A DNA stretch of 49,013 bases. Source: a virus. Of the stretch, positions 1,771 through 11,432 are shown in pieces. Positions within the stretch are counted from its first letter, which is position 1. The number at the start of each line of letters is the position of its first letter. The notes beneath the pieces were generated by a model that was not told where the DNA came from, ran no database searches, and saw only the letters and a program-made list of their open reading frames with translations. The stretch covers positions 1 to 49,013 of the IMG/VR virus record IMGVR_UViG_3300024505_000477. One strand, 5' to 3'. The position numbers were made by a program, and so were the translations under genes.

Positions 1771-3468
1771 TTAGGCTGCTGGAGCAGCTTCAGGTTCAGC
1801 CCCTGGTTCAGCTGCTTGTGCTGCTAAATCGTCGGGTGCTTCTGCGTCTTGTCCACCCGCTTCTGCCGCCATACCTCCCGGTGTTACGCCAGCCGATCTT
1901 AAGTCTCCAGCAGCATCATCCGTAGGTGTTAGGTTAGAACCATTTTCTTCGCGCCATAATGATTCATTTTCTTTAATTTCTTCTTCAGTTAATCCTAAGA
2001 AGCGTTTTAGTGCAAAACGTTTGCTTAGATGAGGAATTTGTGAAACTTGTGAATATGTTGCTGCTCTTGCTGTGTCAAGTTCTGATTGACGATAAGCAGC
2101 AAAGTTTTGTGGAGTATTAAATTTTAATTCAAATAAACTATTGTCAATGTTTACGCCCTGCGCAGCCATCCAAAGTTTAAATTCAACATCAAATGTTTGC
2201 GCTATCATTGATTGTAAACGTTTGCAATATTCATTAAATCGTAATTCTTGAATATATGCCGTTCCAACTTTTCCGTCGGCAATAGTATTACTTGCTTCTT
2301 CAATACCTGTTGGCAAGTATGCTGCTGGTATTCTTAAAGCACGGAAAAGTTTGTTTGTAAAGAATCGTAAATCTGTAATTTCACCTAGATTAGTACCACC
2401 CGGTAGTGTTTCAACTTTAGAACCACGACCTTCAGCAGTTTGTGGGAAGAAGTAATCTTCGTTTACACTTAGTGGATTATAACTAGCGTCAACTAAATTA
2501 TTGCCACCACCGCTGGCGCTAGGAATACGTCTTTGTTGGATTTCGTTTTTAACACGTTCAACAAAGCTCATAGCCATGTGTGCTGGCATATTTCCAACGT
2601 CTACATAGAAAATACGTCTTTCTGGAGCACGTTGTATACGATAGATAATAATAGCATCTTCAAGCAATTCTTTTTGCTTGTAGACTTTGAATACAGATTC
2701 TAAAATTGAATTGCCAAAAGGATAATTGTTGTCTAATCCTTCGCTTAAACTAATATGCACAACATTTTTTGCATCAACCGTTATTTCGTTTACTTGATTG
2801 TGAAATCTAGTGCCAGGAGGTCTTGCTGCATCCCCAACAAATCCTCTACCAAATCCACCGCCCGATACGGTATAACTACCAGTACCACTAGGTTGTGTAT
2901 TTGATGTAGCATGAGGAGTTGTTGCAATTAGATTTGCAAAGTTAAAATTAATATCTTTTAAAACATATTGCTCGGGAATTTTTCCTTCGCTTTCGTTAAC
3001 GATAATTTTTGTAACCTTAGCAGGATCAACATACAACCATTTTTTAGTTTCTGGATCTCTAACAAAGAAACAATCTCCGTATTTGAAAGAATTTCGAACT
3101 ATACGAAAAATTCTTGTGTCAAATTGATTTTGTTTTGCCCACTTCTGTAGGCTTTCTTTAATTAACTTAACTTCGGTTCCGGTTGGTTTGCCTTTAAATG
3201 ATAGTTGAAACGCTGTTCCATTTTCTCTATCTTTTTGTGTACAAAATTCAGCTAAGATATCTAGAGCTGCGTTAACTTCGCTGTCCATATCCATAGTGTC
3301 ATATTGCATATATCGTTCGACACGATTTGGATTACCTGCATATACGTCAGGCAAGAATGATGAATAATTAGTTCTTGCAGGTCCTGGTCGCCCTCTACTG
3401 CCAATAGGACTCATTGTTCCTTGTTGGTTATCGATGTTGACAGGAGTAAAATATTTTTTCCAACTCAT
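1771..3468 (-). CDS. 20: Portal vertex protein, gp20-like
   Basis: 565 residues, against 524 in T4 gp20. The N-terminal part has the typical NRVERYMQYDTMDMDSEVN segment. The middle has GDCFFVRDPETKKWLYVDP and the strongly conserved RIQRAPERRIFYVDVGNM, followed by VETLPGGTNLGEITDLRFF and LFRALRIPAAYLP, all features of T4-type portals. The last 60 residues are rich in Ala, Gly and acidic residues and look disordered. The portal is the dodecameric ring at the special vertex that starts prohead assembly, binds the terminase and passes DNA. It starts 14 bases after the tape-measure-like gene and is followed by the head-core genes. Confidence 0.93.
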   Translation of the reverse strand: MSWKKYFTPVNIDNQQGTMSPIGSRGRPGPARTNYSSFLPDVYAGNPNRVERYMQYDTMDMDSEVNAALDILAEFCTQKDRENGTAFQLSFKGKPTGTEVKLIKESLQKWAKQNQFDTRIFRIVRNSFKYGDCFFVRDPETKKWLYVDPAKVTKIIVNESEGKIPEQYVLKDINFNFANLIATTPHATSNTQPSGTGSYTVSGGGFGRGFVGDAARPPGTRFHNQVNEITVDAKNVVHISLSEGLDNNYPFGNSILESVFKVYKQKELLEDAIIIYRIQRAPERRIFYVDVGNMPAHMAMSFVERVKNEIQQRRIPSASGGGNNLVDASYNPLSVNEDYFFPQTAEGRGSKVETLPGGTNLGEITDLRFFTNKLFRALRIPAAYLPTGIEEASNTIADGKVGTAYIQELRFNEYCKRLQSMIAQTFDVEFKLWMAAQGVNIDNSLFELKFNTPQNFAAYRQSELDTARAATYSQVSQIPHLSKRFALKRFLGLTEEEIKENESLWREENGSNLTPTDDAAGDLRSAGVTPGGMAAEAGGQDAEAPDDLAAQAAEPGAEPEAAPAA

Positions 3469-3482
3469 TTAATTAATGATCC

Positions 3483-6400
3483 TTAAGCAGAATATACATT
3501 GCCCGTCATAGACTTTTGTGTAGTAAGCTGCTTGTCGTTAACTTCTAATAATTTTCGATTTATCATAACTAATAGATCCATCTTAGTATTTAATAGCGAT
3601 AACTGCGATTCAGCTGTTTCTTGAGTTGCCTTAGCGGGTGTAGGTGTTGTTGCACCAGTTCTTGGTTGAGCAGTTGCTGCCGCTGGTGCTGGCGCTGCTG
3701 GTTGTTGTGATACACTAGTTTGAGCTGTTGAGGTCGATGGAGTTACGCTGCCACCTTTGGCAAATTGTCCAGAATAAGAATTTACTTTTCCTAAAATTTC
3801 TTCTCCAATTGCGCCTTTTCGTCTTATGTCTCCACCGGCAATTTGGCTTGTTGCTAACAAGTTTGCTTGTTCTTGAGATAATCCAGAAGTGCCCATACCA
3901 AGTTTGCTAGCCATTCCGGCTTGACCTTTTTTCATATACCAAGCACTAACTTCCGCAGCAACCTGTGGATCGTTAACTAAATCTGGATTTTTAACTAATC
4001 TATCATCACCGTAGATGGCTTTTGATGCAGCGGCATAATTATTTTTACCAGTTAACTGAATAAAACCTCTGCCTCTATATTTCCATCCATCTCCGGGTTC
4101 CGTATTCCCCATTTGACGACCCATTGCTGTGCCGGAACCATACATCATTTCGCCCATTTTTTGCTGGTCGCCTTTGATAGCATTTAGTTCTGCATCGGAT
4201 TTTCCAGCAGCCCTACTACCAAATATTTTTCTAATACGATCGTTAGATGTATTAGCATAATTCATATTTTCAGAAATACTCTTACCGCCAGTTTCTTTCA
4301 TTATGTTGCCTTTGACAGCAGCAACATAAGCAGGATCAGTAATTCCTTGTTTTTTAAGAGCTGCTTCAACTAGAGCCATGTTTTTCTGTTGATCTTGATT
4401 TAACGGTCCAGCAGCTCCTGGGGCCGGTCCTCCTGTTGGTGCAGCGGGTGCAGTAGCAGGTGTGGCAGGTGAAGGAGCTCCTCCTCCCATAGTTTTTCTT
4501 TCTTTAAAGGCTTTAAATGTTTCTTCAGGACTTGTGTAATTAATTTTCTTCTGTGCTTCTACTTGAGCTTCTGTTGTTTTAGTTGCCTCTTGAGCCGCAG
4601 CGGTAGCAGCTTGTGTTGTTTTAGTATGTTCTTGAGTAGCTTTCTTATCTTCCTCGTAAGTTCCACGTTCTATTGCTTTTTGTTTTCTCTTATCGTCTCT
4701 ATCTTTTTCTTTAGCGTCAAGTTCTTTACGTTGGTCATCCCTTAAGGCTCTACGTCTATCAGCTTCTGCTTTACTAATACCACCAATTGCATTTGGTATT
4801 TTCTCTAATAAAGAATCCATCCAATCTTGCAAAGTCATCCATAAACGTTGGAAATTATCTTTTAAAGCATCAATAATTGTTCCAAATGTCCAACCACTAT
4901 CATATAATTTCTTAAAGAGATAAACAACACCTGCAACCGCTGCCGCTACTGCAATAAATGGCGCTGCGGCCGCTAGTACAGGAGCTACGGTTGCCCATAC
5001 TGCTGATGCCAGTGCTGTTAAACCTAAAACATTAACTGCTTGAACTAAATTTGCAGCAGCAGTAATGGCGCTTGAAACTACTATAAGTCCACCTAGTATT
5101 CCCATTCCTATAGCTACTTCTTTTGCATGGTCTGCCACCCAAGTCAATCCTTCAATTAATATAGGAGTTAGTTCTTCTATGGCCGCTGTAAATGACTGCA
5201 ACATTTTATCTAACAACGGACTATTAGCCAATGCTGCCATAAATTTATTTGAAAGGTCAGCTAACTTTTCCATGTTACTTTTCATTTTAGCAGGATCAAG
5301 ACCTTTGGCGCCTTCTGTTAATTGTTTTTGTCTGTCTAATTCTTGTTGTGCCGCTTGTGCTCTTAGACTTCCGTTATCTTTTTCTGCCCTGTTGGCTCGA
5401 TCTAAATTAGAAACAATACCCTTGCCCCATTTTTCAGCATCATACGTGGCCAACGTTACTTGAGCAGCATTTTTTTGACTAGCAATAGCACCAGCATTGA
5501 ATGCTTCGTCAATCTTAAATGCTCCTTCTCTAGTCATTGTTCCTGATTGTCTAATATCACGAGAAGCCTGTAGCAATGCTTTTGCGGCCTGCGGATTTGT
5601 AATCATTAATTGCTGAGCTGCTTCGCTGTTTAATGATCCTGTGGCTAAAATAGTTTGTGCTGCTTGTTTTTCAGATTCACTCATGCTATCCATTAGCATG
5701 TTTAAATTTTTAGCACCTTCTTTTCCAACTTTAGCCTGTAATATTCTAAACTGCGCATCGGCTTGTCTTGCTTCTTGTTCTCTTTGAAGTATTTCTTTAT
5801 TCTTACCAGTAAGTTTTGAAACAGCATCTAAATTTCTTAGATAGTCACCCGTATCTTTAACTAACTCTTCGTTTGAAACTCTTACTCCGCCGGCGCTCTT
5901 TGTGACTATTGCTGAATATCTAGCAATGCCATTATTAATATCTTCAGTTGAATAACCCAATCTTGCAAGTTCGTCTCCAAGTTGACTATTTCTAATCTTC
6001 TGAGACATTTCACTTAAACGTTTTGCACCTTGAGTTACACTACCGCCAAATAATGCTAAGTTCTCGCTGTTATTTTTAATAATGCTTGTGTACTGGTCAA
6101 GTGTTAGCCCTGTTGCCGAAACTTGACGTTGCATTTCTTGAATGCTTCCTCCGAAGTTTGCACCAACACTTGCTGCTTTGTTAAACGATTCATAAGTTTT
6201 TGTAGCAGCGCCTGCTACAGCACCAAAGGCCGACCCAAGAACTCCACCAAAAATTGGAATCTTGCCAATAATGCCGCCAACAGCATTGATGTTGTTTCCC
6301 ATATTGGCAAGATCATTCATTAACCCAAAGAATGATGATCCTAATGCACTGGCACTACTAGCAACTTTTGTAAATCCAGAAGCAACTAATTTTGTCCCTT

Positions 6401-6716
6401 CAATAAATTTTTCCTGGGCTCTAAGTTCTTCTTGATATTGTTTTATCTTTTCTTTTTGAGCTTTGTTTTCTTCTTCGTCTTGTTTTATCTTTTCTTTTTG
6501 CAGTTTGGTTAATTTTTTAAATCCGTCCGATGATTCTTCAAGTTGCTTGTAGAATTTTTTCATCGACTCTGCAATTTGTTTTTCAGATTTGCCGTCTTTG
6601 CCTTGTTTAGCAGCCAACAGAGCAACAGCACGGACAAGTTCCTTGAGGGTGGCTTCGGTAGCCGCGTTGTTTAATTCAATTGGTTGACCGCCTAGATCAC
6701 CGGTTACTTCTGCCAT
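3483..6716 (-). CDS. Tape-measure-like tail protein with C-terminal GH19-like muralytic domain
   Basis: 1077 residues. A Lys/Glu/Gln coiled coil spans about residues 40-105. Gly/Ala-rich hydrophobic segments lie at about 108-170 and 535-610, separated by long helical regions, as in tail tape measures. After an Ala/Pro/Thr linker a GH19 chitinase/endolysin-like domain covers about residues 780-950: KETGG with the likely catalytic Glu near residue 805, SENMNYAN, and WKYRGRGFIQLTGKNNY near 873-892. The C-terminus returns to a Pro/Ala linker and a helix. The tape measure sets tail length and enters the cell envelope; a peptidoglycan-cutting domain would open the wall during injection. A GATAAATA late promoter lies 50 bases upstream. 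The T4 counterpart is gp29, but I infer tape-measure identity from architecture and from the neighbouring gp26/gp51-like genes, not from clear similarity. Confidence 0.75.
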   Translation of the reverse strand: MAEVTGDLGGQPIELNNAATEATLKELVRAVALLAAKQGKDGKSEKQIAESMKKFYKQLEESSDGFKKLTKLQKEKIKQDEEENKAQKEKIKQYQEELRAQEKFIEGTKLVASGFTKVASSASALGSSFFGLMNDLANMGNNINAVGGIIGKIPIFGGVLGSAFGAVAGAATKTYESFNKAASVGANFGGSIQEMQRQVSATGLTLDQYTSIIKNNSENLALFGGSVTQGAKRLSEMSQKIRNSQLGDELARLGYSTEDINNGIARYSAIVTKSAGGVRVSNEELVKDTGDYLRNLDAVSKLTGKNKEILQREQEARQADAQFRILQAKVGKEGAKNLNMLMDSMSESEKQAAQTILATGSLNSEAAQQLMITNPQAAKALLQASRDIRQSGTMTREGAFKIDEAFNAGAIASQKNAAQVTLATYDAEKWGKGIVSNLDRANRAEKDNGSLRAQAAQQELDRQKQLTEGAKGLDPAKMKSNMEKLADLSNKFMAALANSPLLDKMLQSFTAAIEELTPILIEGLTWVADHAKEVAIGMGILGGLIVVSSAITAAANLVQAVNVLGLTALASAVWATVAPVLAAAAPFIAVAAAVAGVVYLFKKLYDSGWTFGTIIDALKDNFQRLWMTLQDWMDSLLEKIPNAIGGISKAEADRRRALRDDQRKELDAKEKDRDDKRKQKAIERGTYEEDKKATQEHTKTTQAATAAAQEATKTTEAQVEAQKKINYTSPEETFKAFKERKTMGGGAPSPATPATAPAAPTGGPAPGAAGPLNQDQQKNMALVEAALKKQGITDPAYVAAVKGNIMKETGGKSISENMNYANTSNDRIRKIFGSRAAGKSDAELNAIKGDQQKMGEMMYGSGTAMGRQMGNTEPGDGWKYRGRGFIQLTGKNNYAAASKAIYGDDRLVKNPDLVNDPQVAAEVSAWYMKKGQAGMASKLGMGTSGLSQEQANLLATSQIAGGDIRRKGAIGEEILGKVNSYSGQFAKGGSVTPSTSTAQTSVSQQPAAPAPAAATAQPRTGATTPTPAKATQETAESQLSLLNTKMDLLVMINRKLLEVNDKQLTTQKSMTGNVYSA

Positions 6717-6784: not shown

Positions 6785-7645
6785 ATGGTAGAAAATCCAT
6801 CAATTGCTAAACCAACAAATCCGTTGGCAGCGTTTTTTAGACAACCAAAGTTATATGTAACTTTACCAAGTCACGGCAAATATTATCCGCCGGGAGTATT
6901 GGATCAGAGTGAGAATGGCGAATACGCTGTCTATGCTATGACCGCTAAGGACGAACTTATGTTTAAAACTCCCGATGCGTTAATGAATGGTCAAGCAACC
7001 GTTGAACTAATAAAAAGCTGTGTGCCTGCTATTAAAGATCCTTGGAAAATGCCAAGTTTAGATTTAGATGCTGTTTTAATTGCTATTAGAACAGCAACCT
7101 ACGGTGAAATGATGGAAGTTGATGCGGATTGCCCTGAATGCAGTAATCGAAGTACATTTGAAATTAATCTTGTGAGTTATCTTGATAAACTTAATAATTT
7201 TAGATATGTAGATCAACTTGAAGTTCCACCGTTAACTATTACTATTAGACCTTATTCATATCAAGAAATTACTAAGGCTAGTATTAAAGCATTAGAACAA
7301 CAAAAAGTATTAAACGTTGTTACTAACGATTCATTGTCAGATGAAGAAAAATTAGAGCAATTTGGCGAAAGTTTTATTAAATTAACCGAATTAACCGTAG
7401 ATGTTATTGCAGGATGTATCACTAGTATTACTACGCCAGAAGCTACCGTAACTGATTCTGTTATGATTAAAGAATTTATTAACAATGCATCAACTGATGT
7501 GTTTAATACAATTAATAAACATGTAACAGAAATGAAAGGTAGAATTGATCTACAGACTCAAGAAGTCGAGTGTACAGAATGTCATCATCAATATACTATT
7601 AACTTAGTAATGGATCAATCAAATTTTTTCGCAGTAAGGTCTTAA
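6785..7645 (+). CDS. 26: Baseplate hub assembly protein, gp26-like (T4_baseplate family)
   Basis: 286 residues. The segment RQPKLYVTLPSHGKYYPPG and the following MTAKDELMFKTPDALMNGQ are typical of the T4 gp26-like baseplate/tail assembly family. Two CxxC pairs, C116/C119 (CPEC) and C263/C266 (CTEC), could bind a zinc ion. In T4, gp26 acts in hub assembly beside gp51. The 0-frame ends at a TAA at 7643-7645, thirteen bases after a TTTTTTC slippery heptamer (7624-7630). A -1 shift there would extend the protein to about 357 residues through the gp51-like frame. A CATAAATA promoter lies upstream; the ribosome site is weak (GGGG). Confidence 0.8.
   Translation: MVENPSIAKPTNPLAAFFRQPKLYVTLPSHGKYYPPGVLDQSENGEYAVYAMTAKDELMFKTPDALMNGQATVELIKSCVPAIKDPWKMPSLDLDAVLIAIRTATYGEMMEVDADCPECSNRSTFEINLVSYLDKLNNFRYVDQLEVPPLTITIRPYSYQEITKASIKALEQQKVLNVVTNDSLSDEEKLEQFGESFIKLTELTVDVIAGCITSITTPEATVTDSVMIKEFINNASTDVFNTINKHVTEMKGRIDLQTQEVECTECHHQYTINLVMDQSNFFAVRS
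7624..7630 (+). promoter_or_regulatory. Candidate -1 ribosomal frameshift slippery site TTTTTTC
   Basis: In the gp26 frame the heptamer reads T TTT TTC, which fits the X XXY YYZ pattern for -1 slippage (TTT stays TTT, TTC becomes TTT). It lies within the overlap of the gp26 frame and the gp51-like frame. Downstream, only short stems are visible: AGGT 7637-7640 with ACCT 7646-7649, or CTCC 7648-7651 with GGAG 7659-7662. A stimulatory structure is therefore possible but not convincing by eye. Confidence 0.6.
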
Positions 7646-7857
7646 ACCTCCCAAGGCCGGAGATCTTACATCTTGTTTCAAAATTAGAAAAAGAGGCTAG
7701 GGAGATTAAAAAGGATGTCCTCAAGGCTTGTTGGTATATGCGAGGACTTTCTTATAGTGAAGGTATGAATCTAAGTTATGAAGAGCGCCAAATTATTGGC
7801 GAGATTATCAAAGATAATTTAGAGACCACTAAGAAAAGCGGCCTCCCATTCTTTTAA
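7630..7857 (+). CDS. 51: gp51-like baseplate hub assembly protein, read as a -1 frameshift extension of gp26
   Basis: 75 codons in the -1 frame relative to gp26, ending at TAA 7855-7857. The frame is open back to a stop at 7600-7602 and contains no ATG, GTG, TTG or CTG before the ATG at 7738, which lies inside the conserved WYMRG motif. Readable protein features are a helical KLEKEAREIKKDVLKACWYM, then RGLSYSEGMNLSYEERQ, and the ending TTKKSGLPFF. This resembles small proteins annotated as hub assembly catalyst gp51 in T4-like marine phages (recalled, not searched). With no start codon of its own, the simplest expression route is a fusion to gp26 by -1 slippage at 7624-7630. The stop abuts the convergent minus-strand gene with no gap. 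Confidence 0.65.
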   Translation, partial: RSKVLNLPRPEILHLVSKLEKEAREIKKDVLKACWYMRGLSYSEGMNLSYEERQIIGEIIKDNLETTKKSGLPFF

Positions 7858-8967
7858 TTACTTTTTAAAAATACTTGTTGCACCTGATTTAACATTTTCG
7901 GTGAACAATTTCTTTTTGTGTTCTTCAATTTTTCTTTCAAGTGCTTCTGCCAAAGGATTACCTGTGTTAACTTTGCCAGCGGCTTGCACCGAAGGCTGAG
8001 CAGGAGCCTTAGCTCTTGATTTTCTCGGAGCACGTTTCTTTGTCTGCATTGTAGGTTCAACTGCGGGTTCTTGTGTTGCAGCTGGCTGTTCCGGTGCTGG
8101 TTGTTGTTGCATATTAGGATTGTTTGGATTTGCTGTATGGGTTGTTGTTCCACCAACCTTTGATGTTGTTCCACCAGTTGAGCTTGTTCCAGTGCTTACT
8201 GCCGGATTTGGTTCGCCGGCTAAGTTTGCTGCCATTTGTCCAAATGCACCTCCGCCTGCTGCTGGTTTTTCTTGTGCTGCTGGTTGTGCGCCTAATTCTT
8301 TTTGTAGTCCTGCAAGGATTCGTTGTTTACCTTTTTTATCTAGTTTAGCAATCTTAGCTTTAACCTGTGCATAAGGCGTGCCTTGTTGAGCTTGATCTTG
8401 TCCTTGACCACCTGCTGCTTGACCTTGTGCGGGTTCCATAGTTGGTTCAATTCTTCCAGATGCATCAGGTTGTGCTGCTCCGCCTGCTGCTGGTTTTCCT
8501 TTTGCAGGTGCTGGTTGTCCGCTAGCGGCCGGTTGTTGGCCTCCTGCTTGACCTTGTGCGGGTTCTTCTTGATCTGTATCTTGCATTCCTGCTTTCTTGG
8601 CTGCATTAAGGAAAGGATTATTTTGACCAATCTTTCCTTTTTTCCACATATCTTGAGCAACTTGACGTTTAGTTATGCCTCCTTGACCACCTGCTGCTTG
8701 TTGACCACCGGCACCACCTGCTGCTTGTTGACCACCTGCTGCTTGACCTTGTGCGGGCTCTTCGTCATCTCCTGCACCTGCTACCGTACTTTTACCTGCG
8801 GCAAATCCTTTTTTAGCGGCTGCACCAAGTCCAGCTATACCACCTGCAACTGCGCCAACGCCTTTGGCAGCAGTTCCTACAGCTTTGCCAACTGCACTAC
8901 CAATTTTATTCATCAATGGGCCTTCGGCAAGTTCTTTATCTTCGGTTATGAATTCATTTAATCTCAT
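7858..8967 (-). CDS. Low-complexity Ala/Gly/Gln-rich probable virion protein
   Basis: 369 residues beginning MRLNEFITEDKELAEGPL, followed by a Gly/Ala helix-prone stretch (about 20-65) that could insert in a membrane. Next come repeats of EEPAQGQAGGQQ and similar segments, a KRQVAQDMWKKGKIGQNNPF segment, and near residues 197-226 the motif YAQVKAKIAKLDKKGKQRI. A closely related motif ends the neighbouring 505-aa protein. The C-terminus is basic and Pro/Ala-rich (KKRAPRKSRAKAPAQP), then a short helix. No enzyme motif is visible. It starts one base after the 505-aa gene, so the two are probably translated together. A structural or injected role is inferred; the exact function is unknown. Confidence 0.65.
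   Translation of the reverse strand: MRLNEFITEDKELAEGPLMNKIGSAVGKAVGTAAKGVGAVAGGIAGLGAAAKKGFAAGKSTVAGAGDDEEPAQGQAAGGQQAAGGAGGQQAAGGQGGITKRQVAQDMWKKGKIGQNNPFLNAAKKAGMQDTDQEEPAQGQAGGQQPAASGQPAPAKGKPAAGGAAQPDASGRIEPTMEPAQGQAAGGQGQDQAQQGTPYAQVKAKIAKLDKKGKQRILAGLQKELGAQPAAQEKPAAGGGAFGQMAANLAGEPNPAVSTGTSSTGGTTSKVGGTTTHTANPNNPNMQQQPAPEQPAATQEPAVEPTMQTKKRAPRKSRAKAPAQPSVQAAGKVNTGNPLAEALERKIEEHKKKLFTENVKSGATSIFKK
8683..8765 (-). repeat. Tandem in-gene repeat coding Gly/Gln/Ala
   Basis: Near-identical units of about 20 bases built on CACCTGCTGCTTGTTGACCA (plus strand) follow one another here. A related GCTTGACCTTGTGCGGG unit recurs at about 8410-8440, 8549-8566 and 8742-8758. They encode GGQQAAGG and EEPAQGQA. 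Such repeats can change length by slippage. Confidence 0.7.
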
Positions 8968-10997: not shown

Positions 10998-11432
10998 TTA
11001 TTTTGCCTTTTTATGTTCTTCTAGGCGTTGCCTTAGTATGTTTGAACCGCCTACTCTGACGTTTATAATGCCATTATAATATTCGTCAGTTTCTAAAACT
11101 CTGCGTTCAAACTGCTCTCTTGCCTCTAAATAGGACATTTCTGCCTTGGATTTGCAAAGATAAAGTATTTCTCTAGTGAAGTTTCCGGGACCTAATGCTT
11201 GGACGTCTGCGTTTAACCTATCAGAAGAACCCCAGTAATCGCGCCAATCGCTTTCAACTACGGATCTACGTTTAAGTTTTTTGCCTTTGAGTGGTGGTTT
11301 AGTACGTTTAAATTGTGCTAATTTCTTGCCTATGTACTTCTGCCCGGTTTGTGTGTTCGTGATGAGATAAACAAAGCCAATATAGCCTTCTGGTATTTCG
11401 TTTATTGGTTGATTTTGATACGTCCATTGCAC
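10998..11432 (-). CDS. GIY-YIG nuclease-like protein
   Basis: 144 residues. The GIY-YIG signature is read as GFVYLITNTQTGQKYIGKK at residues 19-37, followed by a basic stretch (KRTKPPLKGKKLKRRSV), DWRDYWGSS, and a later EAREQFERRVL helix holding the likely metal-binding Glu. GIY-YIG proteins cut DNA; T4-like phages carry both homing endonucleases of this type and unplaced relatives. The start is GTG at 11432, directly after the TGA of the upstream 76-aa gene; the ATG at 11427 is out of frame. It is the last gene of the gp55-gp46 operon and borders the hairpin-rich region. Whether it is a homing enzyme or a phage repair or defence nuclease cannot be told. Confidence 0.75.
   Translation of the reverse strand: MQWTYQNQPINEIPEGYIGFVYLITNTQTGQKYIGKKLAQFKRTKPPLKGKKLKRRSVVESDWRDYWGSSDRLNADVQALGPGNFTREILYLCKSKAEMSYLEAREQFERRVLETDEYYNGIINVRVGGSNILRQRLEEHKKAK

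Follow-up and report, generated by a model that had tools for sequence, protein, structure and literature searches.

We find that the gp26 locus of the window (the whole 49,013-nucleotide stretch of IMG/VR virus record IMGVR_UViG_3300024505_000477 analysed here) very probably constitutes a single tail assembly chaperone gene translated with a programmed −1 ribosomal frameshift, judging from its sequence and that of its relatives. This supports the original prediction, in which gp26 and a gp51-like frame overlapping its end were proposed to be a frameshifted chaperone pair. At the sequence level, the reading is carried by a conserved slippery site, a −1 frame that is coding and under selection, a predicted hairpin with compensating changes, and the kinship of gp26 to the paralogous gp26 and gp51 of T4.

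In lambda, the short form gpG sits on the tape measure protein and the long form gpGT brings the tail tube subunits. In the window phage, we propose that most ribosomes would end at the gp26 stop, yielding a 286-residue TAC-N, and that a fraction would be held at T_TTT_TTC by a hairpin 3 nt downstream. Both Phe-tRNAs would then slip back by one base and translation would resume in the −1 frame, giving a minor 357-residue gp26-C fusion (TAC-NC). By analogy with gpG and gpGT, TAC-N, the plentiful product, would cover the tape measure protein, and the scarcer TAC-NC would use its C-terminal domain to bring in the subunits of the tail tube. Slippage itself, its efficiency and the chaperone role in the window phage are what we infer. 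By its family matches gp26 belongs to the T4-like chaperones, and the short and long forms sharing their N-terminal part are a potential encoded in the genes.

The gp26 locus of the window

The 286-residue gp26-like protein, which would be the short chaperone form, is encoded on the plus strand at 6785–7645 and matches PF12322 (T4_baseplate, 1.7e-20) and phrog_150 (1.5e-23). The heptamer T_TTT_TTC occupies positions 7624–7630, beginning 19 nt ahead of the gp26 stop (7643–7645), and reading of the codons (AAT at 7622, TTT at 7625, TTC at 7628) confirms that it lies in the gp26 frame, as originally noted. The −1 frame is open for 84 codons (7603–7857), from after a stop at 7600–7602, and indeed offers no ATG, GTG, TTG or CTG ahead of its conserved body; the earliest of these codons is an ATG at 7738, already within the conserved WYMRG body, and a rarer ATC codon occurs in frame at 7618. 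Slippage would produce 282 residues from 6785 followed by a 75-residue extension (7630–7857), with base 7630 read twice, so that the expected fusion of 357 residues beside the 286-residue protein is borne out. The −1 frame of the window gave no significant family match in Pfam and PHROG profile searches.

AlphaFold modelled gp26 with a pLDDT of 81.9, and the 77 codons from 7624 as four helices with a pLDDT of 89.3. At a threshold of E 0.001, Foldseek returned nothing for either the gp26 model or the tail model. With VIA-align, the gp26 model scored best against 2ob9_A, the tail assembly chaperone of HK97 (Z 6.3, 98 of 107 residues); a Z of this size is in the common range and may be due to chance.

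A large gene on the minus strand (3483–6716) neighbours gp26 and is divergent from it, as predicted; its tape-measure-like identity follows from its position only. Its family matches are of the endolysin/GH19 type (PF00182, 1.1e-6; phrog_181, 1.7e-30), with the GH19 chitinase-like region near the C terminus. In RaK2, the gene in the equivalent neighbouring place is noted in the record as similar to tape measure protein, and we consider the divergent gene the likely client of the chaperone. Directly behind the chaperone gene, on the opposite strand (7858–8967), lies a gene for a 369-residue protein rich in Ala, Gly, Gln and Pro, for which no Pfam or PHROG family match was found. Farther on, the start of a 144-residue minus-strand ORF (10998–11432) resembles what we take to be a GIY-YIG nuclease motif.

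Conservation of the slippery site and of the −1 frame

Three sets of relatives were compared. The set of the window's clade comprised 37 IMG/VR loci, of which one (L037) was dropped as it ends ahead of the junction. Nineteen isolate loci (L039–L057) were hand-picked, and are therefore non-random, from phage matches (84 at E 1 and 132 at E 10). The in-frame heptamer is TTTTTTC in 15 of the 19 and TTTTTTT in RAS14; L052, L056 and L057 have none in frame. These three, LR756508, SP-15 and BRock, have their downstream frame at +1 and stand outside the three counted sets, and S-CAM1 and P-SSM4 were counted as cyanophage-type, which leaves 14 jumbo isolates. For the cyanophage-type set, the best 80 of at least 600 candidates that matched gp26 of P-SSM4 were kept, and S-CAM1 and P-SSM4 were added, which gives 82 loci with 78 distinct junctions; it is referred to below as the best-80 set.

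The heptamer TTTTTTC is present in frame in all 26 distinct junctions of the window's clade (the window plus 36 IMG/VR loci). An in-frame heptamer was likewise found in 14 of the 14 chosen jumbo isolates, that of RAS14 being TTTTTTT, and in 77 of the 78 distinct cyanophage-type junctions, a set drawn from the best 80 of at least 600 candidates plus S-CAM1 and P-SSM4. Pooling the three sets, in-frame TTTTTT[CT] occurs in 117 of 118 distinct junctions. We also observe that in one cyanophage-type locus, L110, the heptamer is lost and gp26 is fused in frame to the C-terminal part around 3190–3230, apparently through a two-base deletion, either real or a sequencing error. By comparison, only five of 683 other ORFs of at least 100 residues, taken from both strands of the retrieved loci with duplicates still included, have in-frame TTTTTT[CT] in their last 45 nt, and a single one of the 35 such ORFs of the window does, which is gp26 itself. 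Heptamers of any X XXY YYZ type are commoner in the last 45 nt (6 of 35 window ORFs, 67 of 683 others).

Six other IMG/VR contigs (L001–L006), perhaps from related samples, encode a gp26 100% identical to that of the window, with the same junction. This bears on the reading that a sequencing or assembly error in the poly-T run has split one gene, which we reject as having next to no likelihood: homopolymers are prone to error, but the same junction recurs in these contigs, and isolates whose genomes were sequenced independently share the site. This recurrence argues against the one-base error in the T run that the original prediction had set against itself.

In each of the 117 junctions, the stop that precedes the −1 frame is found 0–57 nt ahead of the heptamer, as slippage requires, whereas an upstream start would not need such a stop. 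In seven junctions this stop abuts the heptamer, so that the −1 frame cannot be entered upstream there.

RNA polymerase slippage, adding one U to some transcripts, would give the same fusion, and the site is indeed a homopolymer run within an AT-rich gene. Transcriptional slippage would favour longer runs, but of 117 distinct junctions 116 have precisely six T and then a C, and the one other has seven T. Given this constancy, and because the downstream hairpin and the SD-like element of the cyanophage-type loci described below fit stimulators of the ribosome, we hold polymerase slippage to be very improbable and favour ribosomal slippage.

The −1 frame evolves as a protein, under purifying selection. 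Past the gp26 stop, its pN/pS in the window's clade is 0.28, compared with 1.46 and 1.74 in the other frames (120 pairs among the 17 of 26 distinct members of equal length), and the corresponding values for 73 cyanophage-type sequences of the set built from the best 80 of at least 600 candidates are 0.29 versus 1.21 and 2.10. The C-terminal piece is treated differently in the records of relatives, being unannotated in RaK2 and PA5oct, shortened in Atu_ph07 and a hypothetical gene in CBB. No joined gene is marked in the isolate feature tables examined, and LR756508 bears no annotation. The present reading would explain this C-terminal chaperone piece of jumbo phages, and suggests a rule for annotators, namely to join the frames at TTTTTTC.

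RNA elements and start codons around the site

We predict a hairpin with compensating changes just downstream of the site (7634–7669), from folding and from sequence comparison. It starts 3 nt past the heptamer, and its 5′ arm extends into the gp26 stop at 7643–7645. Folding of the 75 nt starting 3 nt past the heptamer was compared with synonymous shuffles of the −1 ORF, giving z = −1.43 for the window and a mean of −1.89 for its clade, with 22 of 26 below −1. Jumbo isolates average −0.89, eight of the 14 lying below −1 and six above, the hairpin being weak or absent in some. The mean for the cyanophage-type set (best 80 plus two) is −2.04, with 83.8% of 74 below −1.

In 19 of 25 clade sequences (L026, L027 and L029–L032 were excluded as more diverged), the stem formed by 7634–7643 with 7660–7669 is 90.5% paired, compared with 32–51% for slid controls. 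Covariation was counted in the same 19, and 16 double-changed cells were found versus 5.4 in shuffles, a value reached by 0 of 500, with the caveat that relatedness alone may raise such counts above shuffles without structure. Pairs with a double change (4 versus 2.7, 51 of 500) and pair types (9 versus 9.2) were near the shuffles, and RNAalifold recovered nine of the stem pairs from the clade sequences. In 69 of 72 cyanophage-type sequences (68 distinct; L088, L105 and L124 excluded; best-80 set plus two), the stem is 78.9% paired, with 44 double-changed cells versus 15.8, reached by 0 of 500 shuffles and subject to the same inflation; pairs with a double change (4 versus 3.7) and pair types (16 versus 13.9, 66 of 500) again lay near the shuffles. 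On these 69 sequences RNAalifold proposed zero pairs, and P-SSM4-like members are visibly without the stem. In this set, a silent third base (column 21) tracks an amino-acid-changing base (column 35), with the combinations UA 28, GC 14 and AU 13. Overall, two of the five covariation measures are at shuffle level in both alignments.

Cyanophage-type loci show a further element: an SD-like 4-mer lies at −20 to −5 in 67 of 75 loci (best-80 set plus two). The Glu codon within it is GAG in 65 cases and GAA in 10, compared with 513 and 1178 in the rest of gp26. The element was found in 0 of the 26 junctions of the window's clade and 0 of the 14 jumbo isolates.

Start codons of the −1 frame (ATG, GTG or TTG) were counted between the point where this frame opens and 8 nt beyond the first base of the gp26 stop. 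A start is present in four of the 26 distinct clade junctions, in seven of the 14 jumbo isolates and in 57 of the 77 cyanophage-type junctions (49 ATG at +5, two ATG at +8 and six GTG at −1; best-80 set plus two). The missing start is therefore a trait of the window's clade, where it is kept in 22 of 26 junctions including the window, and of half of the jumbo isolates, unlike the cyanophage-type phages. Of the two features that the original prediction would have followed into relatives, TTTTTTC is conserved in nearly all junctions of the three sets, and the missing start varies.

These counts speak for a different reading, in which the −1 frame is a small gene of its own: ribosomes ending at the gp26 stop would re-initiate, or be coupled, at a start codon that is nearby, rare or hidden. 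In addition to the numerous starts near the stop in cyanophage-type and jumbo junctions, ATGA overlaps occur in L024, Phosso and Atu_ph07, an ATG is found at +2 in XbC2, Kaldavass and 121Q, and gp51 of P-SSM4 is annotated from a downstream ATG. Nevertheless, 22 of 26 clade junctions have no ATG, GTG or TTG, yet the coding signal runs on from the heptamer. The +5 ATG of the cyanophages sits inside the 5′ arm of the hairpin, their SD-like element ends about 9 nt ahead of the heptamer, and a gene with its own start would have no need for the heptamer to be invariant. We regard this reading as unlikely overall, disfavoured for the window's clade and less so for cyanophage-type members. At the cyanophage-type loci, slippage is favoured by the heptamer together with the hairpin and the SD-like element; re-initiation, or both, may occur there. 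For the window, we retain programmed −1 frameshifting.

Kinship with T4, distant relatives and known systems

T4 gp26 and gp51 both match PF12322 (8.8e-64 and 3.9e-52, respectively) and phrog_150, and gp51 additionally carries phrog_634 at its end. The −1 product of P-SSM4 matches phrog_634 (3.4e-30), and 13 cyanophage-type products, aligned with one another, match the C terminus of T4 gp51 (hhalign probability 87.5, E 3.6e-6). T4 gp51 is, as far as these matches indicate, a gp26 paralogue with an extra C-terminal domain, which suggests that the two paralogous genes of T4 correspond to what the window's lineage and the cyanophages apparently encode by slippage.

The C-terminal domain of the window matches its counterparts in Phosso (5e-8) and Atu_ph07 (4e-6), but gave no match to phrog_634 up to E 1, and hhalign probabilities of only 2.5 and 0.7 against the T4 and cyanophage gp51 domain. 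It is too diverged to reveal the T4 gp51 link and corresponds by position. The description of this frame as gp51-like needs correcting: it occupies the place of the extra C-terminal domain of T4 gp51 without resembling it significantly in sequence, and it is not a whole gp51. When the gp26 alignment was compared as a profile with individual T4 sequences, the probabilities were also low, despite the shared Pfam and PHROG models.

Regarding the virion, the available text of a review of the T4 tail (PMC3004832) lists gp26 and gp51 as hub assembly chaperones, with gp51 required yet absent from the particle, and states that genetic studies favour gp26 being in the hub. For CBB, the main text of PMC5259590 reports 29 virion peptides for CBB_251 and has CBB_251 and CBB_247 in its virion list; CBB_249 appears nowhere in that main text, and CBB_250 only beside a gp5-like protein, probably a slip for CBB_240. 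Here, the assignment of CBB_249 and CBB_250 to the gp26 locus follows from numbering relative to CBB_252, the portal. The CBB database record labels gp26 a structural protein. In the PA5oct record, ESI-MS/MS marks are found on the portal and the structural genes 334 and 335, and none on gp26 (336).

More distant gp26 relatives show other arrangements. In one group (L142–L156, L140, L056 and L139; Streptomyces BRock-like phages, SP-15 and GXN1), a downstream chaperone-like ORF lies in the +1 frame. The BRock set has TTT_C in 12 of 12 distinct junctions (16 loci), and SP-15 and GXN1 have TTT_CAC and TTT_CGT, respectively. The +1-frame pN/pS of the BRock set is 0.33 versus 1.02 and 1.82 (seven sequences, 14 pairs, nine of 16 loci). 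The LR756508 set has 14 distinct junctions (19 loci), of which 11 carry TTT_TGG, 10 of those with an open +1 frame of at least 45 codons; the remainder comprises one junction with TTT_CTA and two in which a separate ORF, in the −1 frame, begins with an ordinary ATG. Here the +1-frame pN/pS is 0.16 versus 1.5 and 3.0 (nine sequences, 33 pairs, nine of 19 loci). Loci of the LR type with a +1 frame are L158–L168, L170–L172, L174 and L175, the last of which ends ahead of an open 45-codon frame. L141 (SP-15 again), L157, L176 and L177 (cut) were excluded from these counts.

Some +1 loci also have possible start codons, which makes +1 slippage a proposal. The +1 products gave no significant match to phrog_634, so that their status as the same domain rests on position and pattern. 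We note weak DUF6760 matches, under the cut-off, for the +1 products of L158 (2692–2889; 0.029) and L142 (3357–3581; 0.17). The two loci with a separate downstream ORF, L169 (3214–3531) and L173 (from 3214), combine an ordinary ATG and a longer N-terminal part with the absence of the heptamer. A normal start together with no heptamer is the pattern that the original prediction had set against itself, and both loci are far from the window's lineage; gp26 of L169 has no PF12322 match at E 1.

The conserved UUU_C and UUU_UGG suggest, from sequence, that the direction of frameshifting differs among lineages. We see an even chance that gp26 relatives have arrived at five or more solutions for the chaperone junction, namely a −1 shift at U_UUU_UUC (jumbo and cyanophage-type phages), a +1 shift at UUU_C (BRock-like phages, SP-15 and GXN1), a +1 shift at UUU_UGG (LR756508-like phages), a separate ATG gene (L169 and L173) and two paralogues (T4), and that the direction of the shift changed between lineages around a UUU Phe codon close to the gp26 terminus. 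The locus backs the view that the two-paralogue layout of T4 is one among several ways to two chaperone forms, and the relatives provide a natural series in which the setting of the ratio between these forms could be tested.

T4-like tail assembly chaperone genes were reportedly the subject of work by Vladimirov et al. in 2022. In the available text, the PRFect paper (PMC10885494) states that in some T4-like phages a short gene is instead accompanied by a longer fusion gene, and the Adele paper (PMC12846349) cites Vladimirov et al. 2022 for polyT slippery sequences in T4-like TAC-N genes. Given these statements, the family assignment is already known, and the type of site probably is too. The supposition that a gp26/gp51 frameshift had gone undescribed therefore stands only in part: the polyT sites of T4-like TAC-N genes are already published, and the jumbo-phage extension was not found in print, our literature search, thin on subscription papers, yielding no paper on such a frameshift in RaK2-type jumbo phages. 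The RNA elements, and the distant relatives with a seeming +1 shift or a separate gene, were likewise not found in print by this search.

The lambda slippery heptamer is G GGA AAG. Like lambda G/GT, the window locus would make a short chaperone and a minor −1 fusion carrying a C-terminal domain; unlike lambda, it has T TTT TTC, a predicted hairpin, a protein of the T4 gp26 family and a tape-measure-like gene on the opposite strand. The available text of PMC5009743 describes lambda G and GT as tail assembly chaperones, neither product being in the mature virion. The GTTTTT-type frameshift proposed for the TAC genes of Vandenendeviridae and Andersonviridae phages, in the available text of PMC12846349, resembles the window locus in its proposed −1 shift, in its T-rich site close to the TAC-N terminus and in that the ORF behind it is usually annotated separately; it differs in phage family and in motif, the window having an X XXY YYZ heptamer for tandem slippage. 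T4 gp26 and gp51 belong to the same family as the window gp26 (PF12322, phrog_150), but T4 has two paralogous genes on opposite strands, whereas the window has one gene that is apparently read in two ways.
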